The notes under the pieces were generated by a model, which saw only the letters and a list, made by a program, of their open reading frames with translations, was not told where the DNA came from and did not search any database. The translations under genes and the position numbers were made by a program. Below, one piece after another: positions 42,049 through 57,351 of a stretch of DNA of 64,000 nt (positions within the stretch are counted from its first letter, which is position 1; every line of letters starts with the position of its first letter). Source of the stretch: Mycolicibacterium sp. MU0050 (GTDB lineage: Bacteria > Actinomycetota > Actinomycetes > Mycobacteriales > Mycobacteriaceae); contig NZ_OY726395.1 of assembly GCF_963378085.1 (NCBI RefSeq), positions 4,092,001 to 4,156,000 on the forward strand. The letters are read 5' to 3'.

Positions 42049-43665
42049 TCACGCCGTAACGGTCGCAGGCCGTCGCCCCCGCGACAATTCTGTCACCATC
42101 AACGCCACGTGCAATGACGTCATCGACTCGCCGTCCTCGAGATCCACCCCGAGTAGTTCGCGAACCTCGGCGAGCCGTTTGTAGACAAACGGCCGACTGA
42201 CATGCAGACGCTCGGCGACCGCGGCCTTGTTTCCTGCCAGCCGCAGATATTCGCGCAGAACCGTCAGGTGTGACGGCTCTGGTTGCAGCGTGCTGGTCAA
42301 CAGAGATCTTAGCTCGGTTTCAGCGAAGCGCTGGACCCGGCGATCGTCGCGCAACAGCGAAATCAACCCCCGCAGACGCACATCCGAGGCGCGATAGTAA
42401 GAGCGATTGTCCCCCATCGACAACGCCACCTCGGCGATATCCGTCGCTTCGGACATACCCGCGATCGCGTCGGTGACCAAGCTCGCGGGCGGTCCGAGCG
42501 CCAGGACCGCACCATCGACCCCGTCGACGCGGTGAACCTCCCGGCGCAAGCGGTCCCCCAGTATCTCAAGCGCCTTGTCGGCCAACGGTATCCGGTTATC
42601 CCGCAGCGCCAGGACTGCCGCTACCTCGCCGTCCCCGCGAACCGTGAACAAACCCGAATGACCGGCGGCATTCACGGTGTGCGCCACCGCATCGAGTAGC
42701 GCAATGTTTCGCCGGTGAGCGGCCACCGGATCGCCGAGGGGGGTGTGCCCTGGCGATCGCACTACAGCGGGCAGATACTGCGCAGCTTTTCGCAAACCGA
42801 GGGCGTGCGCGCGGGCTGCGGCATCACGGTCGTCGGAGATTCGGCCACGCAGTACATCATCGATGAGTCCGCCCTGTGCCTGATGTTGCAGACCCGTTCT
42901 GTCGCGCTCGACCATCCGATGCATGGCCAGCGCAGCAGCCGCCCGCTCCAGCACCATCGTGGCCCTGGCCTGGTCGCTGGCATGGCGTGGAATCACCAAT
43001 CGGCCCCACTGCTGCGAACTCTGGCCTACTCCGGTGACCGACCACGGCTCGGAATCAGCTCGTTTCCCCGGACTACGCCGCGAGCGCCGCTCCCAATCTG
43101 CGAGCAGGTCGGCTGCGGTGCCGGTCGACACCACGAGAGCCTGGTGCGACAGGTCTTCCAGGACGACCGGCTCGTCCAGAATCTTGGCAGCAGCATCGAC
43201 AATGCCCAGCAGCGGCGCTCCTTTCATACTCAGCTCGGTGAACGTTTCGTGCACACGACGGTCGAAGGCGACTTCTTCGTACTGGGCGGCGACGATTCGG
43301 CGGTGAACCGCCTCGGTGATGTCAACGAATCGGGTCTTTCGATGCAGCACGACAAGGGCGAGGTCAAGCTCATCGGCAATACGTCCCGCGCTTGCAGGCA
43401 GTCTCGAGACCACCGTGCCCAACTCGACGACCACGCCGACGGCACCGGCCTTTGCCAAGCCGCGGAGGTATTCTCGCGAACCGCGCGCAAACGCCGCACC
43501 GGTGGTCAAGACCAACTCCCCGCCCTGGAGTAAGGAAGACAAGTCGGCCAGATCGCTGCTGTGCACCCAGCGGATCGGTTCCGCCAGGCGGCGCTTACTC
43601 AACACCTCGGGTTCGGCCCGTCGAACGACCGGCAACTTGAGCACTTCAGCGACAGTCAGTGTCAT
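42049..43665 (-). CDS. PucR-family transcriptional regulator (first)
   Basis: The 538-residue protein has the N-terminal PucR ligand domain (about 8-130), a central GGDEF-like regulatory region (about 300-430) and a C-terminal PucR helix-turn-helix HTH_30 (LREYLRLAGNKAAVAERLHV, then SRPFVYKRLAEV). PucR regulators typically control purine, amino-acid or amine catabolism. It is divergent from the aminotransferase-GDH operon, which is its most likely target. A short palindrome overlaps its own translation start region, suggesting autoregulation. Confidence 0.9.
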   Translation of the reverse strand: MTLTVAEVLKLPVVRRAEPEVLSKRRLAEPIRWVHSSDLADLSSLLQGGELVLTTGAAFARGSREYLRGLAKAGAVGVVVELGTVVSRLPASAGRIADELDLALVVLHRKTRFVDITEAVHRRIVAAQYEEVAFDRRVHETFTELSMKGAPLLGIVDAAAKILDEPVVLEDLSHQALVVSTGTAADLLADWERRSRRSPGKRADSEPWSVTGVGQSSQQWGRLVIPRHASDQARATMVLERAAAALAMHRMVERDRTGLQHQAQGGLIDDVLRGRISDDRDAAARAHALGLRKAAQYLPAVVRSPGHTPLGDPVAAHRRNIALLDAVAHTVNAAGHSGLFTVRGDGEVAAVLALRDNRIPLADKALEILGDRLRREVHRVDGVDGAVLALGPPASLVTDAIAGMSEATDIAEVALSMGDNRSYYRASDVRLRGLISLLRDDRRVQRFAETELRSLLTSTLQPEPSHLTVLREYLRLAGNKAAVAERLHVSRPFVYKRLAEVRELLGVDLEDGESMTSLHVALMVTELSRGRRPATVTA

Positions 43666-43666
43666 T

Positions 43667-43677
43667 TACACAGTGTA
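43667..43677. promoter_or_regulatory. Palindrome TACAC-A-GTGTA at PucR start
   Basis: A perfect 11-base palindrome lies one base upstream of the first pucR ATG, in the 179-base divergent promoter region. A second weak symmetry, TTGT-N6-ACAA, is at 43762-43775. Both are candidate operators; neither is proven. Confidence 0.35.
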
Positions 43678-43844
43678 TGCGCAATCGACAGATCGATGAC
43701 ACATCGCCCAGGCCATCGACCGGCCTCCGTCCCATAGTTGGACGAGTCCCCAAGCGTCACCTTGTCTGCAACACAACGTAATTCACCGTCCTTGCCATCA
43801 GTCCTCGCGCACCCTGAACAGCCCCATCACAGAACGGAACCACC

Positions 43845-45236
43845 GTGACCACCACTACGCCAACGACCTCTATTCCATCGCGACACGGGCAGGATCTCGA
43901 GTCCGCGATCGCGGCGGGTAAGCGGGCCTATGAGCTGGACCGCGCGCACGTATTCCATTCGTGGTCGGCCCAGGCCAAGCTCGCGCCGATGACGGTGCTG
44001 GCCGCCGAGGGCTCCTACGTCTGGGACGGCGAGGGCAACCGGCTGCTGGACTTCAGCTCACAGCTGGTGAACACCAACATCGGCCACCAACACCCCAAGG
44101 TGGTCGCGGCCATCGCCGAGCAGGCCGCCAAGCTGTGCACCATCGCTCCGTCGCACGTCAACGACGCCCGTTCCGAAGCCGCCCGGTTGATCGCCGAACG
44201 CACCCCCGGGGACCTGAACAAGGTGTTCTTCACCAACGCCGGCGCCGACGCCGTCGAGCACGCGGTACGGATGGCGCGCCTGCACACCGGCCGCCACAAG
44301 GTGCTCTCGCGCTACCGCTCGTACCACGGCGGCACCGACACCGCGGTCAACCTCACCGGCGACACCCGGCGCTGGCCCAACGACCACGGCACCAGCGGGG
44401 TGGTGCACTTCAACGGGCCGTTCCTGTACCGCTCGTCGTTTTATGCCGAGACCGAGGAGCAGGAATCCCAGCGCGCCCTGGAGTACCTCGACCGGCTGAT
44501 CGCCATGGAGGGCCCCGACACCATCGCCGCGATCATCCTCGAATCAGTGCCCGGCACCGCCGGCATCATGGTCCCGCCGCCGGGATATATGGCCGGGGTG
44601 CGCGAGATCTGCGACCGCCACGGCATCGTCTTCATCGCCGACGAGGTGATGGCCGGATTCGGCCGCACCGGCAAGTGGTTCGCCATCCAGAACTTCGACG
44701 TGGTGCCGGATCTGATCACCTTCGCCAAGGGCGTCAACTCCGGCTACGTGCCCCTTGGCGGCGTGGCGATCAACGAAGCGATCGCCGCCACCTTCGCCGA
44801 GCGAGCCTATCCGGGCGGCCTCACCTACTCGGGACACCCGCTGGCCTGCGCCGCCGCGGTGGCGACCATCAACGCCATGGAGGACGAGGCCATGGTGGCC
44901 AACGCGGCCCGCATCGGTGAGCAGGTGCTCGGGCCCGGCCTGCGCGAACTGGCGGCCAAACACCGCAGCGTCGGCGAGGTCCGCGGACTGGGCGTGTTCT
45001 GGGCCATCGAGCTGGTAACCAACCGCCAGACCCGCGAACCGCTGGCCCCCTACGGCGGCTCCAGCCCCGCCATGGCGGCCACGCTGACAGCCTGCAAATC
45101 CGACGGCCTACTTCCCTTCGCCAACTACAACCGCATCCACGCCGTACCCCCCTGCAACGTCAGCGACGACGAGGCCGCCGAGGGACTGCGCATCCTCGAC
45201 AACGCGCTGACCGTCGCCGACGGCCACACGACGTAG
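43845..45236 (+). CDS. Class III PLP aminotransferase
   Basis: The 463-residue fold-type I aminotransferase keeps GADAVEHAVRMAR (the substrate/PLP phosphate region), YRSYHGGT, the PLP aspartate in IADEVMAGFGRTG and the Schiff-base lysine K295 in TFAKGVNSG. The PLGG after the lysine is typical of omega-amino acid:pyruvate transaminases (GABA, beta-alanine, taurine, putrescine type). It would convert an omega-amine to the aldehyde with pyruvate or 2-oxoglutarate. Start GTG 43845. It is followed 36 bases later by NAD-GDH, which can recycle glutamate; an omega-amino acid from the ureohydrolase is a plausible substrate. Confidence 0.9.
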   Translation: MTTTTPTTSIPSRHGQDLESAIAAGKRAYELDRAHVFHSWSAQAKLAPMTVLAAEGSYVWDGEGNRLLDFSSQLVNTNIGHQHPKVVAAIAEQAAKLCTIAPSHVNDARSEAARLIAERTPGDLNKVFFTNAGADAVEHAVRMARLHTGRHKVLSRYRSYHGGTDTAVNLTGDTRRWPNDHGTSGVVHFNGPFLYRSSFYAETEEQESQRALEYLDRLIAMEGPDTIAAIILESVPGTAGIMVPPPGYMAGVREICDRHGIVFIADEVMAGFGRTGKWFAIQNFDVVPDLITFAKGVNSGYVPLGGVAINEAIAATFAERAYPGGLTYSGHPLACAAAVATINAMEDEAMVANAARIGEQVLGPGLRELAAKHRSVGEVRGLGVFWAIELVTNRQTREPLAPYGGSSPAMAATLTACKSDGLLPFANYNRIHAVPPCNVSDDEAAEGLRILDNALTVADGHTT

Positions 45237-45272
45237 CTCGCCGGGCCCAACACTACGAAAAGGGTGACAACG

Positions 45273-48200
45273 ATGGATACAGCTGCCGCGACCCAAGAAC
45301 AGCGCCAATCTCAGGCGCTGCGTGAGCATTCGCCGTGCGTCCCGTCGGCGCCGAGCGTTCGCGGTGACGAAGTTCGTTTTCTGCTGGCCGAACACCACAA
45401 CGACGATGCGGTCGCAACCGGTCGCATCGTCGTCGAAGCAGAGGAGCCGGTTCCACTACGGCGGATTCTGCCGCTGCTGGAAAGCCTGGACATCGAAGCA
45501 CTCGAGGAACATGCAGTTGTATCGACCCGGACCGACGGCACCCGTTGGTACTCGTACGAATTCACCGTTGTCCCAGGTGTAACCGCACGGGAGGCGCTGT
45601 TCGATCCCAACAACGCCGCGGTGATCACCGACGCCTTTCACGCGATGTGGAGCGGACTGGCCGACGCCGACGATTTCAACTCCCTGATCCTCGCGGCGGG
45701 ATTGTCATGGCAGCAGGTTGCCGTGCTCCGCGCACTTGGTCGCTACCTCGGTCAGACTCGTTTACCCTACGCGCAGAACCGCATCCAGAAGATTCTTCTC
45801 GACCACTTGGCAGCCACCCAAGCCCTCATCGAGCTCTTCAATGCTCGATTCAGCAACCCTGATCTCGCCCACGATGACCCCGCTCGGCTTGCCCGCATCG
45901 GCGTTGCCCAGGAACAGGTCGATCAGCAGATCAAACAGGTCGTCAGCCTCGACGCCGACCGTACGCTGCGCGCGTATGCATTGGTGATCCAAGCGTTGAT
46001 TCGCACCAACGCGTTCACCGAGAACGTATTGACCGAATCCCGGCCCTGGTTGGCTTTCAAGCTGCTCCCCAGGGGTATCGAGGAACTACCGCACCCGCGT
46101 CCCAAGTTCGAGATCTTCGTGCATTCCACGACCATTGAGGGCGTGCACATGCGGTTCGGCAGCGTCGCTCGTGGCGGCGTGCGCTGGTCAGACCGCGTCG
46201 ACGACTACCGCACCGAGGTCCTCGGACTGACCAAAGCGCAGACTGTGAAGAACGCCGTTATCGTGCCGGTGGGCGCCAAGGGGGTTTTCGTGCTGAAGCC
46301 GCTGCCGCGACAGCTAGTCGGCAGTGGCCCCAGCGGCATCGAAGCCGGAAAGGTCGGCTACCGCCAGTTCATCAGTGGCTTACTGGACCTGACGGACAAC
46401 GTCAACCACGACGGAGAAACGGTCCCACCTACCGATGTGGTCTGCCACGACGCCCCGGATCCTTATCTTGTTGTCGCAGCAGACAAGGGCACCGCAAAGT
46501 TCTCCGACATCGCAAATGACATCGCCATGGAGCGTGGGTTCTGGCTCGGCGATGCATTCGCCTCAGGCGGATCCACCGGCTACGACCACAAGGCGCTCGG
46601 CATCACGGCGCGTGGAGCCTGGATCAGTGCCAGCGAGCATCTGCGCGAGCTAGGCATCGACGTCACTCGAGATGATTTCACCGCGGTCGGGATCGGCGAC
46701 ATGAGCGGCGATGTGTTTGGCAACGGTATGCTCCGAAGCTCTCGGCTTGGGTTGGTCGCGGCCTTCGATCACCGGCATATCTTTTGCGACCCGACACCAG
46801 AACGGGCGGCGGCATTCACCGAACGGCAACGGCTCTACCACCTCAACGCCTCGTCATGGGACGACTACGACAAGGCATTGATCAGTGCAGGGGGTGGCGT
46901 TTGGTCCCGCGACCGCAAGACCATCCCGGTGAGCCCGCAGATGCGCTCCGCGTTGGGAATGCCCGACGACGTCGACGCGGTGACACCCGATGCCCTGATT
47001 CGCGCCATCCTGTGTGCGCCGGTCGACCTGCTGTGGAACGGCGGCGTCGGAACCTACATCAAGGCAAGTTCGGAGCAGAATTCCGAGATCGGGGACAAGT
47101 TCAACGACCTGGTCCGGGTCAGCGCCGCCGATGTGCGCGCCCGATGCATCACCGAGGGTGGCAACCTCGGTGTATCACCGCAGGGCCGAATCGAATTCGC
47201 GCGATGCGGGGGCCTGATCATCAGTGACGCCATCGACAACGCGGCCGGCGTGGACTGCTCTGATCGTGAAGTCAACATCAAGATCGTGTTGAATTCACTG
47301 CCGAACGGGGCACTGTCGCAGCAACGCCGAATAGAACTCCTTGCCTCGATGACCGACGAGGTGTCGTCCTTGGTGTTGGACAACAACCGTGACCACATTG
47401 CCGTCTTGGGTTGCGCGCGTTACGATGCCGACCGTTTCGTGCGGGTACACGCCGATATGGTGAGCGACCTCGAGGCACGGCGCGGCCTTCGCCGCGATCT
47501 AGAGAATCTGCCCACACCTGATCAATTCGACGATCTCGAAGCCGAAGGAAAGGGCCTGAGTTCGCCACAGCTGGCGACGCTGCTGGCACATGTCAAGCTC
47601 GACTTGAAGCACGAGTTGAACAACGGCGTGTTGTTCGATGACGACTATTTCGCGCCGATGCTGCTGGATTACTTCCCCTCCCAACTACGCGAGACGTTCG
47701 GTGCTACCGTGCACAACCACCCGCTACGTCGAGAAATCATCACCACCGTTGCGGTCAACCGCCTCGTCAGCCTCGGGGGCCTGACATTCGCGTACCGGCT
47801 GTCCGATGACTCGGGGGCCACCGCGGAAGACGTCATTCGCGCCTTCTGCATCGCCGCCGATGTGTTCGACATAGTGCGGCTGATCTCGGCTATCCGCTCC
47901 GCAGGCCTGAGCACCAGGCTGACTCATGAGTTGAGTGTCGAAGCGCGGCGACTGTTGGACAGAGCCGCGCGTTGGCTACTGAACCAACGCCATCAACCAC
48001 TCGACATCGTCGGCGAGGTCGCGCGTTTCACCCCGATCGTCACCGGACTGCGGCCCCGCATCGGTGAGCTACTGCAGGGACGTGAGGCTGATGCGGTGGC
48101 TGCCAGCATTAGCAAGTATCAGCTGCATGGGGTGCCTAACGACATCGCTCGCACCCTGGCCGAATCGCTCTACTGGTTCAGTACACTCGATATCGCCGAT

Positions 48201-48578
48201 GCCGTGCACGCCGAGCCGACTCATGTCCCGATAGCCTTGGCGGGCACATATTTTGCGCTGTCGGACCATTTAGGAATCGACCAGCTGCTGCACTCCATAT
48301 CGGCCTTGCCGCGCGAGGACCGCTGGCATGCGCAAGCCAGGCTGGCGCTGCGGGAAGACCTCTATCAATCGCTGAAGACACTCACGCTCGACGTCGTGAG
48401 ATCTAACCAGCACGGCCAGCCTTGGGATCACATCCGGGCTTGGGAAACGCGCAACCGGTCGAGTTTGGAACGGTCTCAGCGCGCGCTGGCTCGGTTGCAG
48501 GCCGACGCCCCGAACAACCTGGCCGCGCTCTCCGTTGCCGCGACGCATATCAGGAGGATGACAACCGCTTCGGATTGA
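45273..48578 (+). CDS. Shortened NAD-specific glutamate dehydrogenase
   Basis: The 1101-residue protein matches the catalytic and C-terminal parts of the large bacterial NAD-GDH. Visible are RGGVRWSDRVDDYRTEVLG, then AQTVKNAVIVPVGAKG (about 300-335), GIGDMSGDVFGNG (about 473) and NGGVGTYIKAS (about 589). The usual L_180 enzyme, as Rv2476c, has about 1,600 residues; this one lacks much of the N-terminal ACT-like region, so it is a separate short class. It deaminates glutamate to 2-oxoglutarate and ammonium, serving catabolism. ATG 45273 is used (GTG 45264 is too close to the ribosome site). It probably forms an operon with the aminotransferase. Confidence 0.92.
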   Translation: MDTAAATQEQRQSQALREHSPCVPSAPSVRGDEVRFLLAEHHNDDAVATGRIVVEAEEPVPLRRILPLLESLDIEALEEHAVVSTRTDGTRWYSYEFTVVPGVTAREALFDPNNAAVITDAFHAMWSGLADADDFNSLILAAGLSWQQVAVLRALGRYLGQTRLPYAQNRIQKILLDHLAATQALIELFNARFSNPDLAHDDPARLARIGVAQEQVDQQIKQVVSLDADRTLRAYALVIQALIRTNAFTENVLTESRPWLAFKLLPRGIEELPHPRPKFEIFVHSTTIEGVHMRFGSVARGGVRWSDRVDDYRTEVLGLTKAQTVKNAVIVPVGAKGVFVLKPLPRQLVGSGPSGIEAGKVGYRQFISGLLDLTDNVNHDGETVPPTDVVCHDAPDPYLVVAADKGTAKFSDIANDIAMERGFWLGDAFASGGSTGYDHKALGITARGAWISASEHLRELGIDVTRDDFTAVGIGDMSGDVFGNGMLRSSRLGLVAAFDHRHIFCDPTPERAAAFTERQRLYHLNASSWDDYDKALISAGGGVWSRDRKTIPVSPQMRSALGMPDDVDAVTPDALIRAILCAPVDLLWNGGVGTYIKASSEQNSEIGDKFNDLVRVSAADVRARCITEGGNLGVSPQGRIEFARCGGLIISDAIDNAAGVDCSDREVNIKIVLNSLPNGALSQQRRIELLASMTDEVSSLVLDNNRDHIAVLGCARYDADRFVRVHADMVSDLEARRGLRRDLENLPTPDQFDDLEAEGKGLSSPQLATLLAHVKLDLKHELNNGVLFDDDYFAPMLLDYFPSQLRETFGATVHNHPLRREIITTVAVNRLVSLGGLTFAYRLSDDSGATAEDVIRAFCIAADVFDIVRLISAIRSAGLSTRLTHELSVEARRLLDRAARWLLNQRHQPLDIVGEVARFTPIVTGLRPRIGELLQGREADAVAASISKYQLHGVPNDIARTLAESLYWFSTLDIADAVHAEPTHVPIALAGTYFALSDHLGIDQLLHSISALPREDRWHAQARLALREDLYQSLKTLTLDVVRSNQHGQPWDHIRAWETRNRSSLERSQRALARLQADAPNNLAALSVAATHIRRMTTASD

Positions 48579-48772
48579 ACTGGCCCGGCCACGGCGACTC
48601 AAGCGACATAGTGTCGTCATTCTTGGGCTATCGGTGACACTTTGCAGCTACGACGTCCCGCCGGGTTGACAAAACTAACTGTTCAACGGGGAATGGGAAC
48701 ACCCGGGTCCGCTCACCGCGGGAACGTGGTCGCTCTGCCCCTGCGCAACGAACACCACGGGTTGAGGACACA

Positions 48773-49057
48773 ATGAGACAACGGTCTGACTCCTGGCATT
48801 GGCAACTTGACGCTGCCTGCCTCGCACACGATAGGGCACTGTTCTTCCACCCCGAGGGCGAGCGAGGGCCTCGTCGTCGCTCCAGGCAACTCATGGCCAA
48901 GGCGGTGTGCGAGCAATGTCCCGTGCAACCTCAGTGTCGGGATCACGCCATGGCGTTTCCAGAGCATTTCGGGACTTGGGGCGGGCTCACAGAAGAGGAC
49001 CGAGACCGACTTCGCAAGGCGCGGCCACCGTTCGGTCGCCGCACCCAGCGGGCCTAA
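48773..49057 (+). CDS. WhiB-family iron-sulfur regulator (first)
   Basis: The 94-residue protein has the four WhiB cysteines (C16, C46, C49, C55; AVCEQCPVQPQC) for a [4Fe-4S] cluster, the turn GTWGGL and a basic C-terminal tail (FGRRTQR) for DNA contact. FFHPEGERG and the spacing resemble WhiB3, a redox regulator. It lies 194 bases after NAD-GDH and may have its own promoter; a TTGACA element is at 48666-48671. A very similar WhiB occurs at 61739-62059. It converges on the second pucR. Confidence 0.9.
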   Translation: MRQRSDSWHWQLDAACLAHDRALFFHPEGERGPRRRSRQLMAKAVCEQCPVQPQCRDHAMAFPEHFGTWGGLTEEDRDRLRKARPPFGRRTQRA

Positions 49058-49099
49058 CAGTCGCCTAACAGACCGCCCCGGAACGCAGAACCCCGGGAA

Positions 49100-50245
49100 C
49101 TACGCGGGGTCGGCCGATTCGATGGTGCCCATGTTGCCCGCCGCCCAAATCGCAATTCTGAACTTGACCCTGTCGTTTTCGTCCAGCGGGTTGGCGCCCG
49201 TCAGTTCGGCCACCTTGGCCAGTCGATTACGCAACGTATTCACATGCACGTACAACTTCGCAGCCGCTGTGCTGATGTCGCTCCCCGGACGGAGGAATAC
49301 TTGTAACGACGCCAGCAGATCGGTGCTGGACCGTGCGTCGTACTCCACCAGCGGAACAATCAGGCGGTGGATGAACGGAACAAGGCGCACTTTGGGGACC
49401 GCGGCCAGCAATCCCTCCAGCGTCGCAACGTCCTCGATGCGCACGACCTGTCGACGACGGACCCCTTCGCGCAGCGCCTCCAGCGCCTCCGGGATGGCGT
49501 GGGCCATCGCTTGAGCGTTCTCGGCGACAGCGACACCGCAGACCAGGTGCGAATCTGCAAGAGCAGAGCTGAACTCGGCACCACCGGCACACAGCGCCAA
49601 GATTCGATCCTCGAGGACTGCCACCGCACCGGCGTACTCATCCACCAGCCGATGGACCTCCTTGTGCAGTTCCACGGGGAAGGCACAGACCAGCACGCTC
49701 GAGCCCGCCAACCCGTAACCTGTGAGCGCGTTCTCGATCGGTCCCACGCCTAGCGTGCCCGCCACGAACCACCGCAACAACGCACCCAGCTCCCGCTCCC
49801 GGGCGTCAACCGTGCGTTCGGTGATACGTCGGTCATCTATCCAGTCCACGACGCGCCGAAACGGCACACCGGGCGCCAAGGTCAACAGCGGAAGGCCCTG
49901 CGTACGGCACTCCTTGACCAACTCGACAGGAGCTTCCACGAGCAGATCGCCGAGACCGACCAGCAACGCCGTGACGCGGTTCTTGACCAGATCAGCCACA
50001 TACCGGTGGACTACATCAGCCGGTTTGTTGTAGATCGGAACACCCACGCTGACAACCAGTTCCTCCCCTCGCAGGTAGTTCGAGGGGTCGAAAAGCTCAG
50101 TCGGGTAGACGTACCTGATCACTCCCGACGAACCGGCCGGGGCGGTCACCGCACTGACCCGCAGGTCCGGCTCGGCCAGCAGGTCGGCGAGGGTCACCGT
50201 GCCATCGTGCGGCCCGGCTCCGGAAGAGCCTGGCTGCCTATGCAT
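49100..50245 (-). CDS. PucR-family transcriptional regulator (second)
   Basis: The 381-residue PucR protein has an N-terminal ligand domain (TLADLLAEPDLRV to about 140) and the C-terminal HTH_30 helix-turn-helix (VFLRPGSDISTAAAKLYVHV, then NTLRNRLAKVAELTG). It is shorter than the first PucR in the window and not a close copy. It is the last gene of the Rieske/ureohydrolase operon, 68 bases after the reductase, and is a likely regulator of that operon. ATG 50245 is chosen over TTG 50257. Confidence 0.88.
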   Translation of the reverse strand: MHRQPGSSGAGPHDGTVTLADLLAEPDLRVSAVTAPAGSSGVIRYVYPTELFDPSNYLRGEELVVSVGVPIYNKPADVVHRYVADLVKNRVTALLVGLGDLLVEAPVELVKECRTQGLPLLTLAPGVPFRRVVDWIDDRRITERTVDARERELGALLRWFVAGTLGVGPIENALTGYGLAGSSVLVCAFPVELHKEVHRLVDEYAGAVAVLEDRILALCAGGAEFSSALADSHLVCGVAVAENAQAMAHAIPEALEALREGVRRRQVVRIEDVATLEGLLAAVPKVRLVPFIHRLIVPLVEYDARSSTDLLASLQVFLRPGSDISTAAAKLYVHVNTLRNRLAKVAELTGANPLDENDRVKFRIAIWAAGNMGTIESADPA

Positions 50246-50313
50246 TACGGCTCGCAACGTCGAGACAGCGCTGATTCCTGACCGAAGCCATCGAGGGTCA
50301 CCACCAGAACATA

Positions 50314-51270
50314 CTAGAGATCCAACCGCAGTCTAGATCCCGCCTTGGCCCGTGACACGCAGATCATCATGGTCTGATTCGCGGCACGTTCGGCATCCGT
50401 GAGCAGCTCGTCGCGGTGGTCGACCTCGCCCCCGAGCACCTTGGTTTCGCAGGTGCCGCAGAAACCACTGGTGCACGAGAACGGTGTATCCGGTGCAGCT
50501 TCGAGGACGGCGTCTAGCACCGATCTGTCGTTGCTGACTTTGACCGTGATCCCGGTACGGACAAGTTCCACCTCGAAGTCATCCGCTTCGCCGTCCGAGA
50601 CCGACGATGCCTGCTCGGCGCCGCTGAACCGCTCGATGTGGACCGAGATATCCGGACGTTCTTGACCGAGTTGGGTCACCGCCGAAAGCATCGCCGGCGG
50701 TCCGCAGGAATACATCTGCGTGCCAGGCGGACTTGCTGCGATCGCGGCCGCAAAATCGGGCAGCCCGTCGGTGTCCTGCGCAACCAGTTGCAGGTCGATG
50801 TCGTCCAGTCGGCGTAGCCGCTCGACGAAGGCCATCGCCGACCGGGAACGGGCTCCGTACACGACCCGAACCGAGGCCGGCGGTGGATTGCGGACCGACA
50901 CCTCGTCGAGCATCGCCAGGATCGGTGTGATGCCTATCCCTCCCGCAGTGAACAGGTAATGCTCGGCGGGGACCAGGCCGAAGTCGTTACGGGGTTGCCC
51001 GACCTCGACGATGTCCCCGACGCGCAGACGGTCGTGGATCTCCCGCGATCCGCCGCGACCGCGGTCGACCCGCAGGACGGCCACCGTGTAGGTGTGGCGG
51101 TCGTCCTGCGGGCCGCACAGCGAGTACTGTCGAACGAGACCGGACGGCAGCGTCACCGGTACGTGGGATCCCGCTGACCAGGTGGGAAGCTCAGTCCCGC
51201 TGGGGTCGCGCAGTACCAACGACACGATGTCGTCGGCCTCGAGCCGGAGCTGGACTAGTTGTAGCTTCAT
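50314..51270 (-). CDS. Rieske oxygenase reductase (VanB/phthalate-type)
   Basis: The 318-residue protein combines three domains: an FMN-binding domain (RQYSLCGP, about 50-57), an NAD domain (TAGGIGITPILAM and SCGPPAML) and a C-terminal plant-type [2Fe-2S] ferredoxin domain (CTSGFCGTC, with the fourth cysteine in MICVS). It would pass electrons from NADH to the adjacent Rieske oxygenase, completing a two-component class IA-type system. The gene starts 44 bases after the oxygenase stop. Confidence 0.93.
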   Translation of the reverse strand: MKLQLVQLRLEADDIVSLVLRDPSGTELPTWSAGSHVPVTLPSGLVRQYSLCGPQDDRHTYTVAVLRVDRGRGGSREIHDRLRVGDIVEVGQPRNDFGLVPAEHYLFTAGGIGITPILAMLDEVSVRNPPPASVRVVYGARSRSAMAFVERLRRLDDIDLQLVAQDTDGLPDFAAAIAASPPGTQMYSCGPPAMLSAVTQLGQERPDISVHIERFSGAEQASSVSDGEADDFEVELVRTGITVKVSNDRSVLDAVLEAAPDTPFSCTSGFCGTCETKVLGGEVDHRDELLTDAERAANQTMMICVSRAKAGSRLRLDL

Positions 51271-51314
51271 GAATCCCCAGTACTCCACAGTTTGGTGACG
51301 ACGATCAACCGAGA

Positions 51315-52355
51315 TTACGCCTGGCCGTTGACGGCGACCGGCAGCAGCCCTCGCGCCTCCAGGATGGTCTGGACGGCGTGCCTGGTCGCTCGGCGGTAGT
51401 TCAGGGCGTAGACGTCGGCAGGTGCAGACACCTCCTCTGCTTGCCCGGCCAACGGCACCTCCTTGGGATCGAGGCCCTCGAGCACCGGGGTGTCCTCGTT
51501 GAACACCGTCGTCTCGATGGCCAAGATCTCATCGACGCTGCCGCCGCGGAAATTCCGGTCTACCGCTACGCCCCAGAAAATCGTGCACTTGTCGTAGCTG
51601 ACCGGGGACGGGAAGTCGACCAGGTACCGCTTTCCGATCTCGGGACCGAAATCGTAAAGAATGGTGGCGATTCCCGGAGCGTAGGAGTGGTAGTGCATCC
51701 ACGCATCTCCCACATCGGAGAACTCCGAACCGGGAATGCTCTCGTAAAAGAATGACGCCCGGACCTCACGACCCTCGCGTTGCACATTCAGGTCAGGAAT
51801 CACGGTGGACACCTCACCCATCGAGCGGTCATGAACGAAGGGGAAGTGCGCCATGTCACGGAAGTTTTCCGTTGCCGCCATGAATCCGCATTCGGCGTGG
51901 ATCGGCTCCGCCGCGCGCCACTCGAGGTCCAAGTCTTGGATCTCGGGCGGGTGCGGTAGGTCAAACACGGGATCGCCCAGACAGGTCCAGACGTGCTCGA
52001 AACGCTCGATCACCGGATACGACTTGATCGCGGCCTTGGGCGGGATACGTCCCCCCTCGGCCAACGACGGGATGCGGCTACAGACGCCACTGGGCCCGTC
52101 GAACTGCCAACCGTGATAAGGACACTGAATGCTGTCGCCGACGACCTGGCCGTCCGCGAGATTACCCCCCCGGTGGATGCATCGGCGGTCGACAACGCGG
52201 GCTGCGCCGGACGAATCCCGGAATACCACTAGCTTCTGGTCGAGTAGTTGCGTTGCGTAAGGACCATCGTTGACGTCTTGTGATCGCGCCACCACGAACC
52301 AGACGTGCTGATAGGCCTCGCGGAGCTTCTCGGGGCTGAGAATGTTGGCGGTCAT
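51315..52355 (-). CDS. Rieske non-haem iron oxygenase, VanA-like
   Basis: The 346-residue protein has a Rieske [2Fe-2S] site (C59, H61, C78, H81; CIHRGG and CPYHGW). The mononuclear iron motif is ENFRDMAHFPFVH (D167 bridge, H170, H175). Size and type fit VanA/NdmA-like O- or N-dealkylating monooxygenases more than aromatic-ring dioxygenases, with no beta-subunit gene near. The neighbours (ureohydrolase, deacetylase, amine permease) suggest an N-substituted nitrogen compound as substrate (inference). Confidence 0.93.
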   Translation of the reverse strand: MTANILSPEKLREAYQHVWFVVARSQDVNDGPYATQLLDQKLVVFRDSSGAARVVDRRCIHRGGNLADGQVVGDSIQCPYHGWQFDGPSGVCSRIPSLAEGGRIPPKAAIKSYPVIERFEHVWTCLGDPVFDLPHPPEIQDLDLEWRAAEPIHAECGFMAATENFRDMAHFPFVHDRSMGEVSTVIPDLNVQREGREVRASFFYESIPGSEFSDVGDAWMHYHSYAPGIATILYDFGPEIGKRYLVDFPSPVSYDKCTIFWGVAVDRNFRGGSVDEILAIETTVFNEDTPVLEGLDPKEVPLAGQAEEVSAPADVYALNYRRATRHAVQTILEARGLLPVAVNGQA

Positions 52356-52366
52356 GATTGGTTCTC

Positions 52367-52388
52367 CTTCTATTCGACTTCTATTCGA
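52367..52388. repeat. 11-base tandem duplication at an operon junction
   Basis: CTTCTATTCGA occurs twice in direct tandem. It covers the stop codon of the deacetylase gene and the ribosome site of the Rieske gene (AGAAGGAG on the minus strand), so it looks like a small slippage duplication that lengthened the intergenic gap. Confidence 0.85.
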
Positions 52389-53274
52389 CCGGGCTGAAGA
52401 TCGGACGAGTCAACGTGCGGGGAAGCAACTGCTGGCGGCGAACGTGGGCTGCGATCTGCTCCATACTGGCCACCCAGACATCGTCCATCGCGCACACCTC
52501 TGCGATGAAATCGCGCAGCGCAAAGGCACGTCCGGGCCTGCCGCTCAAGAACGGGTGGTTGGTCAGTATCCAAGCGCCGCCTACCGCGCGCATGGCGTCG
52601 AGCTCGGATCGCCACAGCTCGATCGCTTTAGCCGGCGTCTCGATGAGCCCGACACCGGAGAAATCCGGGACAAAACAGTACTGTTGCCAGTCGTCGAGTG
52701 CCCAACTTACGGGCAATTCGACCAACGAGCCGGACCCTCGACCCGAACCCGCAACGGCCAGCTCGTAGGGATGATCCGAATCCATCAGTGTCGAGTCGTA
52801 GTCGAAACCGAACTCCAGCAACAACTCAGGGGTATGCCAATTCATCTCCCACATCGGCGCGCGGTACCCCCGCGGCCGGACTCCCGCCACATCGGCCAAC
52901 GCGTGCAGTCCGCGCGTCAGGATCCGCCGCTCGGTGGCTTCATCGACACCGACGAGCGATTCGTGCAGGTAGCCGTGGTGAGCGATCTCGTGACCCGCCT
53001 CGGCGATCGCTCGAATCACCGTCGGGTGCCGCTCCGCGGTGTATCCCGGTACGAAGAAGGTGGCATCCACGTTGAGCTCACCAAGGATGCCCAACAGACG
53101 CGGTACGCCGACCAACGGACCGTACGCCTGGTGCGACATCACTCCCATCCGGTCAGCGAATGCAGGATCTGTTGTCAGCAAAGGTGATTCGGCGTCGACG
53201 TCGAACGTGAATGCTACGGCGCACGACTTTCCACCCGGCCACATGATCGGTTGTGCTGCTGTTGGTTCAGTCAT
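52381..53274 (-). CDS. PuuE-like polysaccharide deacetylase-fold hydrolase
   Basis: The 297-residue NodB-homology protein has motif 1 TFDVDAES, motif 2 HEIAHHGYLHE (two metal histidines) and motif 3 RGYRAPMWE. These are features of the intracellular subgroup that includes the cofactor-free allantoinase PuuE and cyclic-imidate hydrolases, rather than secreted chitin deacetylases; no signal peptide is present. It may open a cyclic amide/ureide or remove an N-acyl group. ATG 53274 overlaps the ureohydrolase stop (ATGA). Confidence 0.85.
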   Translation of the reverse strand: MTEPTAAQPIMWPGGKSCAVAFTFDVDAESPLLTTDPAFADRMGVMSHQAYGPLVGVPRLLGILGELNVDATFFVPGYTAERHPTVIRAIAEAGHEIAHHGYLHESLVGVDEATERRILTRGLHALADVAGVRPRGYRAPMWEMNWHTPELLLEFGFDYDSTLMDSDHPYELAVAGSGRGSGSLVELPVSWALDDWQQYCFVPDFSGVGLIETPAKAIELWRSELDAMRAVGGAWILTNHPFLSGRPGRAFALRDFIAEVCAMDDVWVASMEQIAAHVRRQQLLPRTLTRPIFSPVE

Positions 53275-54233
53275 CGTTGCGCCTTTCTCGCGAATACGGA
53301 CAAGAACTCCCAAGTGACGTTGGCCGCAGCAACAGCTGTGATCTCGGCATGGTCATAGGCCGGTGATACCTCGACGACGTCGGCGCCGACGAGATTCACA
53401 TCCACCAATCCGCGGACCACTTCGAGTAGTTCTCGACTCGACATGCCGCCCGCCTCCGGCGTGCCCGTTCCGGGCGCGTGGGCGGGATCCAACACGTCGA
53501 TATCCACCGACACATATACCGGTGAATCGCCGACCCGCTCGCAAATCCGATCGATGACCCCTTGTGCCCCGAGGGAGTCGATGTCGGGGCAGGTGATGCA
53601 GGAGAATCCGAAGTTCGCGTCCTCGACTAGGTCGTTCTTGTCGTAGATCGATCCACGGACCCCGATATGCACGTTGGTGTCGAGCAGTAGACCTTCCTCA
53701 TAGGCCCGTCTGAACGGCGAACCATGAGTGATGTCAGCGCCGTAGTAACCATCCCAGGTATCCAGGTGTGCGTCAAAGTGCACCAACGCCATCGGGCCGT
53801 GCACCGAGGCGGCGGCCCGCAGGGACGGTAACGCCACCGAGTGGTCGCCGCCCAGGATCACTGCTTTGGTCCCCTTCGCGAGGAGCGCAGCCAGATCTTC
53901 TGCGACCTCGTCGACGGCGGCCGCGATGTCGAACGGGTTGCACGCAATGTCCCCGGCATCCGCGAACTGACACACCTCGAAGGGTTTGACGTCGAGCGCC
54001 GGGTTATACCCGCGAGTCAGCCGGGAGCCCTGCCGAATCGCATTGGGGCCGAACCTTGCTCCCGGACGATAGGTGACCGCGCTGTCGAACGGCACACCAA
54101 TCACCACGACGTCAGCATGCTCGACATCCTCGAGCCGGGGCAGTCGAGCAAACGTAGTCCAGCCCGCGTACCGTGGTTGCACCTGTGGGTCCACCGCCCC
54201 GACGATGCGGTTTGCTGCGTTATGTTCCTTCAT
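53271..54233 (-). CDS. Agmatinase/arginase-family ureohydrolase
   Basis: The 320-residue enzyme has all Mn-type ligands: GGDHS (H131), DAHLD (D154, H156, D158) and SVDIDVLDPAHAPGTG (D244, D246). The DAHLDTWDGYYG stretch and the following THGSPFRRAYEEGL resemble guanidinobutyrase/guanidinopropionase-type enzymes more than arginase. The expected reaction is release of urea from a guanidino group, leaving an omega-amine. ATG 54233 has a GAGAGG ribosome site. It is located between the degenerate SDR and the PuuE-like hydrolase in one operon. A guanidine- or biguanide-type substrate is also possible in this family. Confidence 0.92.
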   Translation of the reverse strand: MKEHNAANRIVGAVDPQVQPRYAGWTTFARLPRLEDVEHADVVVIGVPFDSAVTYRPGARFGPNAIRQGSRLTRGYNPALDVKPFEVCQFADAGDIACNPFDIAAAVDEVAEDLAALLAKGTKAVILGGDHSVALPSLRAAASVHGPMALVHFDAHLDTWDGYYGADITHGSPFRRAYEEGLLLDTNVHIGVRGSIYDKNDLVEDANFGFSCITCPDIDSLGAQGVIDRICERVGDSPVYVSVDIDVLDPAHAPGTGTPEAGGMSSRELLEVVRGLVDVNLVGADVVEVSPAYDHAEITAVAAANVTWEFLSVFARKAQR

Positions 54234-54247
54234 CGAAACGACCTCTC

Positions 54248-54949
54248 TCAAACACGGTTCCGGGACGATCCGCCGTCGGCGTTGACGATCTGGCCTACGG
54301 CGGCGCCTAACGAAGATCTGCTCAATATTTCGATCAACCGGGCGATTTGGGTGACAGTGCCCCGACCGGCCGGCGCTGTGGAGCCGGAGTCGGCGGCGTC
54401 GCAGATGGACCACTCAGAGTCGACACATCCGACGGCGACCGCGTTGACACCGATGCCGAATCGGCCGAAATCGCGCGTCAATGTCTTGGTGAGCGCTACG
54501 ACTCCTCCCGCAGCGGCGGCCACCGCCGACAAACCATGCCCTCCCCGATGCCAGCGGGACGTCGTCAAAACCATTCGTCCGCCCTCGCCACGCATCACCT
54601 CTGCAGTAGCTTGAGCCACCAGGAACGTGCCGGTCAACGCCGTGTCGACATGGCACCAGAATGCCTCCATCGCCAGCTCGTCCAGCGTCGCCACGAAGGG
54701 CAGCGCGTGGGCCGTGACCACGGTGTCGAGGCCTTCCATGGATTCGGCCGCTCGACGGACAGCCGCGCGCACCTGTTCGGGGTCGGTCAGCTCGGCCACG
54801 ATCGACGCCGATGCCACGGATTGGGTGCGTGGTGCGGCCTGGCACGTCCCCAGCACGCGCGCTCCGGTAGCCGAGAGAGCTGACTGCACGGCGGCCCCGA
54901 GCATGGTGTCGGTTCCGGTAACGAGAACACGTCGTCGTGGTTCGGTCAT
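54248..54949 (-). CDS. Degenerate SDR-fold protein, catalytic residues lost
   Basis: The 233-residue protein aligns by eye with short-chain dehydrogenases over its whole length (LVTGTDTMLGAAV, LTKTLTRDFGRFGIGVNAVA, VNADGG). The hallmarks are altered: TGxxxGxG reads TGTDTMLG, NNAG reads TAHA, and the YxxxK pair reads VxxxA in SAVAAAAGGVVALTK. A normal SDR reaction is therefore unlikely. It is not truncated and has a clean reading frame, so a structural or regulatory role, perhaps pairing with the intact SDR 2 bases upstream, is more likely than decay. Confidence 0.85.
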   Translation of the reverse strand: MTEPRRRVLVTGTDTMLGAAVQSALSATGARVLGTCQAAPRTQSVASASIVAELTDPEQVRAAVRRAAESMEGLDTVVTAHALPFVATLDELAMEAFWCHVDTALTGTFLVAQATAEVMRGEGGRMVLTTSRWHRGGHGLSAVAAAAGGVVALTKTLTRDFGRFGIGVNAVAVGCVDSEWSICDAADSGSTAPAGRGTVTQIARLIEILSRSSLGAAVGQIVNADGGSSRNRV

Positions 54950-54951
54950 TC

Positions 54952-55647
54952 TCAGATCACCGTTCCACTGTTGAGCGACAGCACTTCTGCGCACAGGAAG
55001 AGGTCGTCCTCAACGAGTGCATACACCAGTTCGGCGACTTCCTCCGGATGTGCAATACGTCCTGCCGGAAGAGTCGCCAAAAACTCCGGCGCTCGTTCCC
55101 ATGAATCCGCACCGAGCAACGGAGTGTCACAGGGGCCCGGCGCGACAGCGTTGACCAGCACCCCGTCCGGAGCCGCTTCCACCGCCACGCTGCGGAGCAG
55201 ACTCAGGGCCGCCCCCTTTGCGGCAGCGTAGTGGGCGTCGTTGCTACCGCCACCGATCGCCCGCTCCGAGGCGATGCCGACCACGCGTCCCGCGCCGCGT
55301 CGACGCATCTCTGGCAGGACCGCACGAATCACGTGTAGCAAGCCGCCCACGTGCACGCGAATCATGCGCTGCCAAGCCGCAAAGTCGATCTCCAACGCCG
55401 GCGCCTCTTCGTAGTGACCCGCACAAACCACGGCGGCATGGATACTGCCGCACTCCCTGCGAATACGTTCGACGGCGTCGCAGACCGACTTCTCGTCGGC
55501 AACGTCCGCGAGGGTCGACACGTCAGCGTCCGGCGCAGACTCTCGCGAGACCGATGCCACCGTCCAACCCCCGGCACGCATCCGCCTGGCGATCGCCGCG
55601 CCGATTCCACTGCCCGCACCGGTGACGACCACTGTTCGATCGGTCAT
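54952..55647 (-). CDS. Short-chain dehydrogenase/reductase (intact)
   Basis: The 231-residue classical SDR has the cofactor loop TGAGSGIG, a VCAG in place of NNAG, catalytic serine in GIASERA and the YAAAK pair. It would oxidise or reduce an alcohol/carbonyl, for example a semialdehyde from transamination (inference). ATG 55647 overlaps the permease stop (ATGA) and the gene precedes the degenerate SDR, suggesting a duplication followed by divergence or a hetero-oligomer. Confidence 0.9.
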   Translation of the reverse strand: MTDRTVVVTGAGSGIGAAIARRMRAGGWTVASVSRESAPDADVSTLADVADEKSVCDAVERIRRECGSIHAAVVCAGHYEEAPALEIDFAAWQRMIRVHVGGLLHVIRAVLPEMRRRGAGRVVGIASERAIGGGSNDAHYAAAKGAALSLLRSVAVEAAPDGVLVNAVAPGPCDTPLLGADSWERAPEFLATLPAGRIAHPEEVAELVYALVEDDLFLCAEVLSLNSGTVI

Positions 55648-57167
55648 GCCAGCTCCCGCTTGGACTCGACGACCGATTCGCCAGCGGGCTCTGGCAGCAG
55701 CTCGGTCGCACTGTCTGTCCCGATCGATGCAGCGCTGTCCTGGTCATCAACAGGGATCTCGCCGCTGCGATGTGCGCGACCGGTCCGGAGGATCAGCACG
55801 CCCACTGCCAGGATCAGACCCATCACCACGAAGAAGGCCCAGTTGGTGTACCAGGAGTCGTAGACATTCCGGGGCCAGACGATGTTGAGAAATTCGAACC
55901 CGGCCCACAAGACCGCCAGAATCGCAACGGGGGTACCGAATCTGCCGAGGTTCCACGGACCGGGTACCCACTTTCCTCGTAGCCGGACAATCAATCCGGT
56001 GATGAGCGGAAAGAGGAACGCCAGGTAGTAGCCGCCGGCCGTGAAGGTCACCAGCACGGAGTAGACATCGGTAGCTGAGATCAAGTAGACCAACGCGCCG
56101 ATAACGGCCGTGACCAGGATGGCTGGCACCGGCTGAGCCTCCGCTCGCGAGAGACGCTTGAGCACGGGCGAGCCGGGCAGTGCCTCGTCGCGCGCATACG
56201 CCCAGATGACCCGGGACGCCGATGCCTGCAACGCCAGGAAGCTGGCGAGGAACCCGATGACGAATAGGAACAAGATGGGTTTCACTGCCGACTCACCAAG
56301 CGCGTTCTTCAACACGTAGTAGACCGGGTCGGGCTCCTCGCCGGAGGTGATCCGGTCGAAATCGGGGACCGCCAGCGTCACGGCCAAGGATGCGTAGGCG
56401 ATCACCAGCGCCAGGAAGGACACCGCGAATACCATGGCCTTCGGCACATTTCGACGGGGATCTTTGACTTCCTCCGCGATCGCACCGGCACTCTCGAAGC
56501 CAAGGATCGACCATCCGGTGAACGCCAGCGCCGCCAAGAACGGTCCGCTCAGATAAGCCCAAGACCACCCAGTAACGAGATCAGGACCCTGCAGAACCGC
56601 GTCGAATCCGTGGTAGCGATGGAAGATCAGCAGGTAGGTGCTCAGTCCGAGCGAGGCGATGATCTCGGCGATGATACTGCCGACCATCAGCACTTTGAGG
56701 AACGTCCGTCCAAGGATGTTCACACCTGAACCGGCCAGCAGGATCAACAGAGCGATGAAGCTCTGTTGACCGGCGCTGGGATGCTCGATGCCGATCAACT
56801 GGGCCAAGAACCCCGCCCCGCCGTAGGCGACGGTAGCCATGATGATCACCAAGGCCCACATGTACACCCAGCCGGCAAGCCAGCCGGCGACATTGCCAGC
56901 GAGGCGCTTCGTCCACTGGTATATCGATCCCTCGAGCGGCCAGCGTGACACCAGTTCTGCGAACGCCAGTGCAATGATGCACTGCCCGGTACCGACGATG
57001 ACGAATGTCCACCAGAAGCCGGGCCCAGCCGTCGCGAGGGACAAACCGTAGATCCCATACATCGCGACAATGGGCGAGATGAAGGCGAACGCAAACGCGA
57101 ATGCCGACCATAGTGAGAACTCTCGCTTCAATTCCGTTGGTGATGCCTCTGATTCGACGTCATGCAT
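55644..57167 (-). CDS. APC-family amino acid/amine permease
   Basis: The 507-residue protein has about twelve membrane helices with the APC core: the helix 1 break ISPIVAMYGIYG, FWWTFVIVGTGQ, ELVSRWPLEGSIYQWTKRL, GFESAGAIAEEVKDPRRNVP and SASRVIWAYARDEALP. The family imports amino acids, GABA, choline or polyamines by proton or substrate exchange. As first gene of the eight-gene minus-strand operon it probably brings in the island's substrate. The C-terminal 40 residues are acidic and cytosolic. Confidence 0.92.
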   Translation of the reverse strand: MHDVESEASPTELKREFSLWSAFAFAFAFISPIVAMYGIYGLSLATAGPGFWWTFVIVGTGQCIIALAFAELVSRWPLEGSIYQWTKRLAGNVAGWLAGWVYMWALVIIMATVAYGGAGFLAQLIGIEHPSAGQQSFIALLILLAGSGVNILGRTFLKVLMVGSIIAEIIASLGLSTYLLIFHRYHGFDAVLQGPDLVTGWSWAYLSGPFLAALAFTGWSILGFESAGAIAEEVKDPRRNVPKAMVFAVSFLALVIAYASLAVTLAVPDFDRITSGEEPDPVYYVLKNALGESAVKPILFLFVIGFLASFLALQASASRVIWAYARDEALPGSPVLKRLSRAEAQPVPAILVTAVIGALVYLISATDVYSVLVTFTAGGYYLAFLFPLITGLIVRLRGKWVPGPWNLGRFGTPVAILAVLWAGFEFLNIVWPRNVYDSWYTNWAFFVVMGLILAVGVLILRTGRAHRSGEIPVDDQDSAASIGTDSATELLPEPAGESVVESKRELA

Positions 57168-57274: not shown

Positions 57275-57351
57275 CTGTAGGCCACTACAGCGTCCGAAGA
57301 TCGGCCGGTCCACTCCCGTCGGCAGCTCCTAGGATCGTGTGATCAGCACAC
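57275..57351. promoter_or_regulatory. Divergent promoter region with two palindromes
   Basis: Between the permease (starts 57167) and the polyprenyl synthetase (starts 57374) are CTGTAG-GCCA-CTACAG (57275-57290, perfect 6-base arms) and GTGTG-ATCAG-CACAC (57337-57351, perfect 5-base arms). The first is placed to control the catabolic operon, the second to control the synthetase gene. The GTGT/ACAC half-sites recall the TACACAGTGTA palindrome at the first pucR. Confidence 0.4.

Follow-up and report, generated by a model that had tools for sequence, protein, structure and literature searches.

The window analysed here, a stretch of 64,000 nucleotides from Mycolicibacterium sp. MU0050 (contig NZ_OY726395.1, positions 4,092,001 to 4,156,000), carries at positions 49100 to 57167 an eight-gene operon that combines a permease, two short-chain dehydrogenases (SDR1 and SDR2), a ureohydrolase, a PuuE-like hydrolase, a Rieske oxygenase with a reductase, and a PucR-family regulator. 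With confidence a little short of even, this PucR-controlled operon is proposed to degrade a small cyclic amidine, most likely six-membered, through the Rieske enzyme, SDR1, the hydrolase, and the ureohydrolase. Held still more tentatively is a wider account, in which the operon represents an undescribed catabolism of cyclic amidines: a captured VioQ-like Rieske enzyme would have bypassed an NAD-dependent dehydrogenase, which became the pseudoenzyme partner of its sister SDR, while a second, paralogous pathway became available to the cell for the ring compound in its non-hydroxylated form, and a formamidase joined the PucR regulon. The open-access literature searched contained no description of the operon. 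Its genes are as follows.

55644..57167, minus strand: APC-family permease (import); PF13520 at 1.9e-49; nearest NCBIfam model TIGR03428 ('permease, urea carboxylase system') at 186.6 bits, below its cut-off of 740.
54952..55647, minus strand: SDR1, catalytically complete short-chain dehydrogenase; PF13561 at 5.9e-39; motifs YAAAK and TGAGSGIG.
54248..54949 (alternative ORF start 54994), minus strand: SDR2, pseudo-dehydrogenase; Tyr/Lys and one Gly of the cofactor motif lost.
53271..54230 (ATG start, MKEHNAAN), minus strand: ureohydrolase (amidine hydrolase); PF00491 at 8.3e-95.
52381..53274 (alternative ORF start 53313), minus strand: PuuE-like cyclic amide/imide hydrolase of polysaccharide-deacetylase fold; PF01522 at 2.3e-17; TFDVD and HHGYLH kept.
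51315..52355, minus strand: Rieske non-haem iron oxygenase, VanA-type, probably of VioQ type; PF00355 and PF19112; CxH-x16-CPYH and NFRDMAHFPFVH.
50314..51288, minus strand: electron-transfer reductase with NAD-binding and plant-type 2Fe-2S domains; PF00111, PF22290, PF00175; CTSGFCGTC and GGIGITP.
49100..50257, minus strand: PucR-family regulator; PF07905 and PF13556.

Families were assigned with Pfam and NCBIfam models, and they agree with a sequence-only reading made earlier by a model, which had placed eight genes of these families at these positions on one strand. All lie on the minus strand at spacings of -4, -43, 17, -43, 25, 26, and 56 bases, with the ureohydrolase counted from its ATG at 54230 and the other genes from their first start. 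Both spacings of -43 become about +2 and an ATGA overlap, the latter at the junction of hydrolase and ureohydrolase, if SDR2 and the hydrolase begin at the downstream methionine. No non-ribosomal peptide synthetase (NRPS) domain occurs in the 19 window proteins scanned, the eight operon proteins included. The G+C content of 42049-57167 is 0.634, lower than in all 12 sampled stretches of the 5.2-Mb genome (0.663-0.713), which suggests that the region may have come in from outside.

A collection of species genomes was scanned with the PuuE-like protein, the best 80 of 357 places were kept as loci (L numbers), and their gene content was determined by tblastn with the operon proteins. Fifteen of 16 further loci (L002-L017) match all eight genes in the order of the window, in Mycobacteriaceae (L002-L016) as well as in Streptomyces tagetis (L017), so the association is not due to chance, and the view taken in the sequence-only reading, of one coherent catabolic operon, is sustained. 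The locus of the alphaproteobacterium Aquibium (L018) carries SDR1, SDR2, hydrolase, Rieske, and reductase genes, with ureohydrolase homologues on the same contig. A Rieske-free core of permease, two SDRs, ureohydrolase, and hydrolase is found in 53 of the 63 remaining loci and is more widely spread than the eight-gene operon. In a tree of the hydrolase, which holds 17 of the 18 Rieske loci (L008 was left out for a stop in its hydrolase reading) and in which row L097 is the window itself, wrongly labelled Rieske-free, the Rieske loci, Aquibium included, form one clade with support 100/100. Since seven genomes carry both versions (L002/L056, L003/L059, L008/L067, L010/L072, L011/L080, L012/L081, L013/L070), these are paralogous pathways and not alternatives. 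The hydrolase is present at E 1e-60 in 12 of 61 genomes (the own genome, which has it, and 60 relatives) and at E 1e-55 in 14 of 396 genomes of the phylum, the own one counted; among the same 396, the Rieske protein is found at E 1e-70 in the own genome only. Single relatives show breaks, namely an in-frame stop in the hydrolase of L008 (10001-10915), a reductase in two frames in L011 (12012-12939), and a formamidase split between frames in L012 (14687-15789), which may be assembly errors or decay.

In 83 rows with exactly two SDR matches within 3.6 kb upstream of the hydrolase, SDR1 keeps the tyrosine and lysine of YxxxK throughout (83/83). SDR2, rightly called degenerate in the sequence-only reading, has lost this motif, Tyr and Lys being replaced by Val and Ala in the window and L002-L017 (17/17). 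The catalytic pair is lost in all 20 rows with a Rieske gene and kept in all 63 without one; removal of six repeat rows leaves 77 distinct loci, with SDR2 dead in 18/18 where the Rieske gene is present and intact in 59/59 where it is absent. The loss of the catalytic pair of SDR2 in the loci with a Rieske gene is one evolutionary event on one branch, retained since. SDR2 is nevertheless under purifying selection and not freely decaying, under looser constraint than the ureohydrolase: the median dN/dS over 20 pairs is 0.25 for SDR2, 0.25 for the reductase, 0.24 for PucR, and 0.09 for the ureohydrolase. On the simplest reading, the Rieske enzyme would now supply the former product of SDR2, which may be retained as a partner of SDR1. 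The pair is like the BbsCD type in one point, one subunit being without YxxxK and the other intact; a title by von Horsten et al., cited in PMC10818641, describes BbsCD of anaerobic toluene degradation as an SDR with inactive pseudoenzyme subunits. At a further locus (L125), the hydrolase is accompanied by two SDRs, of which SDR2 is intact, and a 38% Rieske homologue found about 8 kb away from the hydrolase was not assigned to that operon.

The Rieske 2Fe-2S site and the 2-His-1-carboxylate site are both present in sequence and alignment, and the closest solved structures are SxtT, SxtDIOX, and NdmA. VioQ is a Rieske enzyme acting on the capreomycidine ring carbon next to nitrogen, beside a cyclic guanidine, and VioD is capreomycidine synthase. 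In 336 Streptomyces genomes (G numbers), scanned at E 1e-35 with only the best candidates per genome scored, two matches stand at 73-74% and three at 36-38%, with one weaker (G850) and no others. The two close ones belong to G451, which is the operon of L017, and G650 (L223), where the 74% relative (G650:C1:539019-540014) and a VioD gene are about 1 Mb apart. The three at 36-38% (G685, G576, and G829; E 2e-59 to 2e-53) all come from genomes with VioD over the cut-off. In G685, whose protein is 36% identical to the operon enzyme over 329 residues, the gene lies about 20 kb from VioD and beside an APH-family phosphotransferase; VioD is adjoined by a TauD-family oxygenase, and NRPS domains, a carbamoyltransferase (OTCase), and OCD are present. 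In G576 the distance is likewise about 20 kb, with NRPS domains between, while in G829 the two genes are on different contigs. From these neighbours, the G685 and G576 proteins are probably VioQ, and the nearest non-operon relatives in the sampled Streptomyces appear to be of VioQ type. This kinship favours hydroxylation at a ring carbon adjoining nitrogen over the oxidative dealkylation that the sequence-only reading had assigned to the Rieske enzyme. The review PMC9403184 names VioQ as a hydroxylating enzyme of viomycin synthesis, and a microarray appendix labels MSMEG_4372 'capreomycidine hydroxylase' (PMC5445863). PMC4617892 lists the M. smegmatis formamidase MSMEG_4367 and the FmdB-family gene MSMEG_4368 as up under nitrogen limitation, together with the 'agmatinase' MSMEG_4459, further off; the MSMEG_4367-4372 region would be the counterpart of the operon locus.

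A conserved palindrome ties the operon to a formamidase.

57275..57290, unstranded: putative operator (CTGTAGTGGCCTACAG on the minus strand), upstream of the permease.

In the window and L002-L016, the palindrome, CTGTAG-N4-CTACAG, precedes the permease by 123-130 bp (16/16 within two mismatches; nine exact, six with one, one with two). It is not found before the permease of L017 (best four mismatches), and it occurs within two mismatches in 1 of 55 upstream regions of Rieske-free permeases. Its count proves nothing: no exact match other than the window site exists in the own 5.22-Mb genome, but at up to one mismatch a reversed control pattern has five sites per strand there against two for the palindrome, and at up to two the window has one match against 0.50 expected by chance. 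Support comes from the conserved position. In L002-L016 a formamidase (FmdA) follows a small leading gene beside the operon; the L013 copy scores 698.6 bits against a formamidase cut-off of 500. The palindrome lies within two mismatches in the 520 bp upstream of this unit in 13 of 15 (six exact, one with one mismatch, six with two), the exceptions being L008 (three) and L009 (five); the random control gave 165 of 4000 450-bp windows of the same loci, real sites included. Formamidases were also sought in 148 genomes of the genus, were present in 42, and stretches were taken from 20: the box precedes 3/3 beside the operon (two apparently repeats of L004 and L013) and 0/16 away from it, none of these coming within three mismatches. 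In L003 the formamidase unit is inverted, yet a one-mismatch box remains upstream of its small leading gene, and in L013 a hairpin between PucR and the small gene contains the palindrome. The formamidase thus appears to have been recruited to the regulon of the operon, whose regulator has a PucR domain and whose palindrome is conserved; PucR would be the protein that binds the predicted operator. Since operon and formamidase share an operator in relatives, the pathway probably yields formamide. At L191 (8306-11090), also among the 20 stretches, a permease match (80%) stands alone next to FmdA and its small leading gene, with an operator at two mismatches; this is perhaps a deleted operon.

The nearest PDB entries to the ureohydrolase are proclavaminate amidinohydrolase (PAH, 1gq6), 3-guanidinopropionase (GpuA, 3nip), and guanidinobutyrase (GbuA, 3nio). 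It has the binuclear metal motifs GGDH, DAHxD, and DxD, and its ligands H131, D154, H156, D158, D244, and D246 are identical in 83/83 operon-type rows (17 Rieske-clade and 66 others, some repeats). It passes the agmatinase model TIGR01230 (247.2 against 174.3) and fails the HutG formiminoglutamase model TIGR01227 (151.0 against 229.15). Tyr163 is kept in 15/17 Rieske-clade and 66/66 other rows, at a position that we take to be important and where GpuA has Tyr and GbuA Met. Since the pocket positions DAHLDTW, Tyr163, Thr169-His-Gly, and Glu288 are common to both operon versions, the versions likely converge before the ureohydrolase step. As to what it releases, formamide (if C2 bears H) is in our judgement somewhat favoured over urea (if C2 bears NH2). 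The urea release of the sequence-only reading looks less likely in view of the formamidase's operator. It is kept in play by 'urea carboxylase-associated' (DUF1989) genes, which adjoin the Rieske operon of Aquibium (L018) and three relatives on plasmids and suggest urea or guanidine chemistry. On a further Aquibium stretch (L135, 3286-11200), three ureohydrolase homologues and a DUF1989 gene lie on the operon contig near nitrous-oxide reductase genes.

The label 'PuuE-like' for the hydrolase holds only loosely: the PuuE model TIGR03212 is not passed (84.6 bits against a cut-off of 424.6). The nearest structures are 3rxz (554 bits), H. pylori 3qbu (116 bits), then 1z7a and PuuE 3cl6 (77 bits). 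According to a 2024 paper (PMC10967932), PuuE is non-metal-dependent, and 3rxz keeps all five active residues of the CE4 family and is called functionally uncharacterised.

A last step may be supplied by genes at the other end of the region.

43845..45236, plus strand: class III aminotransferase, PRK06062 subfamily; 817.8 bits against a cut-off of 472.
45264..48578, plus strand: large NAD-glutamate dehydrogenase, 27 bp behind the aminotransferase; PF05088 at 742.6 bits.
42049..43665, minus strand: second PucR-family regulator, divergent from the aminotransferase; PF07905, PF13556, PF17853.

Relatives of the aminotransferase (58-65%) stand beside or near core genes in 6 of the 80 loci (L033, L045, L048, L075, L077, L078), in keeping with the earlier proposal that the amine passes to this enzyme. 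In all six it is accompanied by a homologue of methylmalonate-semialdehyde dehydrogenase (MMSDH), whole in L033 and L048 and incomplete at the stretch end in the other four; the L033 protein, the only one scored against the family model, is of the CoA-acylating type (682 bits against 448.5). The semialdehyde dehydrogenase that the same reading had expected to come from elsewhere is thus represented in these loci. On a Rubrobacter plasmid, MMSDH, alanine dehydrogenase, an aminotransferase (34% to that of the window), ureohydrolase, permease, two SDRs, and hydrolase form one run. The MMSDH and aminotransferase genes of the relatives point to a beta-amino acid as product of the ureohydrolase, and the aminotransferase is probably the last step of the pathway. 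The glutamate dehydrogenase, present in the window only among the loci compared, would recycle 2-oxoglutarate and free ammonium. Compared with the PucR genes that adjoin core loci, the second PucR is distant, its one match standing at 37%.

From this evidence we infer a set of reactions, a substrate, and an SDR1-SDR2 complex. The APC permease would import the cyclic amidine, and the Rieske oxygenase and reductase would hydroxylate a ring CH2 next to nitrogen to a cyclic hemiaminal, which SDR1, in complex with the dead SDR2, would oxidise to a lactam. The PuuE-like hydrolase would open the lactam, giving a beta-amino acid with an N-formimino (or guanidino) group, and the ureohydrolase would cut the amidine into beta-amino acid and formamide in the Mycobacteriaceae version, with urea as the alternative. 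The aminotransferase and glutamate dehydrogenase would then convert the beta-amino acid to an oxo acid of the (methyl)malonate-semialdehyde type. When the pairing of HxnW and HxnM described below is combined with a hydroxylase acting on a ring carbon and a hydrolase acting on an amidine, the expected order is Rieske, SDR1, hydrolase, ureohydrolase, aminotransferase. In the Rieske-free core, active SDR2 would deliver the same hemiaminal or aldehyde from an alcohol; in the Rieske branch, the Rieske enzyme would have taken over this step and SDR2 become a pseudoenzyme. The nitrogen-rich amidine, guanidine, or cyclic substrate and the ring opening by the PuuE-like enzyme that had been suggested from the sequence both find a place here. 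The earlier dealkylation and urea scheme as a whole stands in part, and the SDR pair, to which it gave no role, would be central.

That scheme can be made specific as a guanidino version, rather unlikely though the nearest of the alternatives, in which a guanidine, cyclic or N-substituted, that bears a three-carbon arm would undergo Rieske hydroxylation or N-dealkylation to 3-guanidinopropanal (as hemiaminal), SDR1 would give the lactam, the hydrolase 3-guanidinopropionate, and the ureohydrolase urea and beta-alanine. It would account for the VioQ-type kinship of the Rieske enzyme, for the PAH, GpuA, and GbuA neighbours of the ureohydrolase with its GpuA-like tyrosine and sub-threshold HutG score, for MMSDH and aminotransferase in relatives, for the DUF1989 neighbours of L018 and the plasmid relatives, and for a permease nearest, below cut-off, to the urea carboxylase system model. 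However, the operator ties a formamidase and not a urea enzyme to the operon, and no urease occurs among the 50 neighbour proteins scanned (a minority of the neighbours) or in the plasmid gene tables. Formamide would also emerge from an imidazole route like that of histidine utilisation (Hut), which is improbable: here the Rieske enzyme makes an imidazolone from an aromatic imidazole, the PuuE-like enzyme replaces HutI, the ureohydrolase, of one family with HutG, acts as formimino hydrolase, and the SDRs act on an alcohol side chain. The Rieske-free core, with the same ureohydrolase pocket, would then lack ring activation; MMSDH in relatives indicates a beta-amino acid, whereas imidazolones give alpha-amino acids; and the HutG model is not passed.

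Two further readings carry little probability. The operator and formamidase could reflect a general nitrogen-scavenging link, the operon degrading an unrelated compound with the hydrolase as deacylase; the rise of the M. smegmatis formamidase and FmdB-type gene under nitrogen limitation, reported in PMC4617892, fits this very unlikely case, but the box is absent, at up to two mismatches, from all 16 formamidases away from the operon and survives in the inverted unit of L003. Least probable is an ectoine-type route, in which ectoine is hydroxylated at C6 by the Rieske enzyme, oxidised by SDR1 to a lactam, opened to N-acetimidoyl-aspartate, and split by the ureohydrolase into acetamide and aspartate, FmdA hydrolysing the amide. 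Ectoine is an abundant natural six-membered cyclic amidine, an enzyme of the FmdA/AmdA family carries the operator, and on an Aminobacter plasmid a 43% PuuE-like gene directly precedes ehuBCDA; yet FmdA scores as a formamidase, and the Rieske-free core and MMSDH are left unexplained. Two other candidates were dropped: a guanidinohydantoin/8-oxoguanine route, prompted by the allantoinase-like hydrolase, since MMSDH in relatives implies a beta-amino acid, and a thiamine-pyrimidine (HMP) route, since no gene of the set reduces an aromatic ring.

Several observations weigh against the proposed degradation of a cyclic amidine to formamide. The lines of evidence disagree on the C2 group, the formamidase speaking for formamide and VioQ and DUF1989 for urea: VioQ acts on a guanidine, which would give urea, and the DUF1989 neighbours point the same way. 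The own genome's nearest formamidase (73-74%) lies elsewhere and without the operator, and both formamidase and operator are missing from the examined stretches of L017 and L018. The match of Rieske gene and dead SDR2 is a single event, so the 18 loci are not independent, and one of them (L005, Mycobacterium sp. IS-1742) lacks the reductase at 11900-12100 in an otherwise complete Rieske operon. Of these 18, the window alone has the close aminotransferase within reach, L003 having a relative at 35%, and the aminotransferase and MMSDH evidence is drawn from Rieske-free relatives. A VioQ-type match was found in only 3 of 19 Streptomyces genomes with VioD over the cut-off, and in none of three stretches of a fourth VioD locus (G667). 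No assay of any enzyme of the set was found in the open-access literature searched, and we know of no abundant natural six-membered cyclic formamidine.

Beyond the operon, the neighbours of more distant plasmid PuuE-like genes proved uninformative as a guide to the substrate, except in Rubrobacter, where MMSDH and aminotransferase are joined to the core. A Sinorhizobium plasmid (L090, 2064-20918) carries Rieske (47%), reductase, one SDR, ABC transporter, hydantoinase A, S-Me-THD, and PuuE-like genes, apparently a further combination of Rieske enzyme, SDR, and lactam hydrolase. A Nocardia plasmid (L093, 6847-13994) carries an amidase, a DUF1989-type gene, an NADH:flavin oxidoreductase, a PuuE-like hydrolase, PucR, and a cytosine permease, a set reminiscent of the Hxn nicotinate route. 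On the Aminobacter DMFA1 plasmid (L091, 12010-16123), the PuuE-like hydrolase is immediately 5' of the ectoine-type ABC transporter ehuBCDA, and genes of the Xaa-Pro peptidase family are present. In the window, a gene at 57374-58465 runs divergently from the permease and is provisionally called a polyprenyl synthetase; its relatives at the corresponding site in L002-L005, L007, L008, and L015 stand at 49-51%, a weaker conservation than that of the operon.

If the proposal is true, environmental mycobacteria and other actinobacteria would have a new way of scavenging nitrogen, and the operon would offer a possible function for structure 3rxz and provide a clean case of a changed pathway entry step, in which an oxygenase arrives and the old dehydrogenase is catalytically dead yet retained; the seven genomes with both versions allow a comparison within one cell. 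Among known systems, the nicotinate pathway of A. nidulans pairs the SDR HxnW, which acts on a cyclic hemiaminal lactam and oxidises its 6-hydroxy group so that an imide results, with HxnM, a PuuE-like enzyme that opens this imide (PMC9304392). The operon would be alike in its succession of hemiaminal oxidation by an SDR and ring opening by a relative of PuuE; it differs from Hxn, as the consulted part of PMC9304392 presents it, in that Hxn has a pyridine substrate, other oxygenases, an OYE-type reductase and not a Rieske system, one SDR, and no ureohydrolase noted. With VioQ of viomycin and tuberactinomycin synthesis, the operon has in common a VanA-type Rieske oxygenase, as judged from the presumed VioQ of G685, but VioQ is biosynthetic and acts on a peptide antibiotic, whereas the operon is catabolic and without NRPS. 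The use of guanidino acids by P. aeruginosa through GpuA and GbuA, with beta-alanine breakdown, is similar in that a ureohydrolase acts on an omega-amidino acid and is followed by an aminotransferase and an MMSDH-type enzyme; it differs in that it is not known to include an oxygenase, SDR pair, or lactam hydrolase. HutI and HutG of histidine utilisation have a like sequence of lactam opening followed by a ureohydrolase-fold enzyme that frees formamide, although the ring-opening fold is another one, Hut is not known to use an oxygenase, and the HutG model is not passed here. BbsCD, finally, has an unrelated substrate and no oxygenase swap, and it matches the operon in having an SDR pair with an inactive pseudoenzyme subunit.

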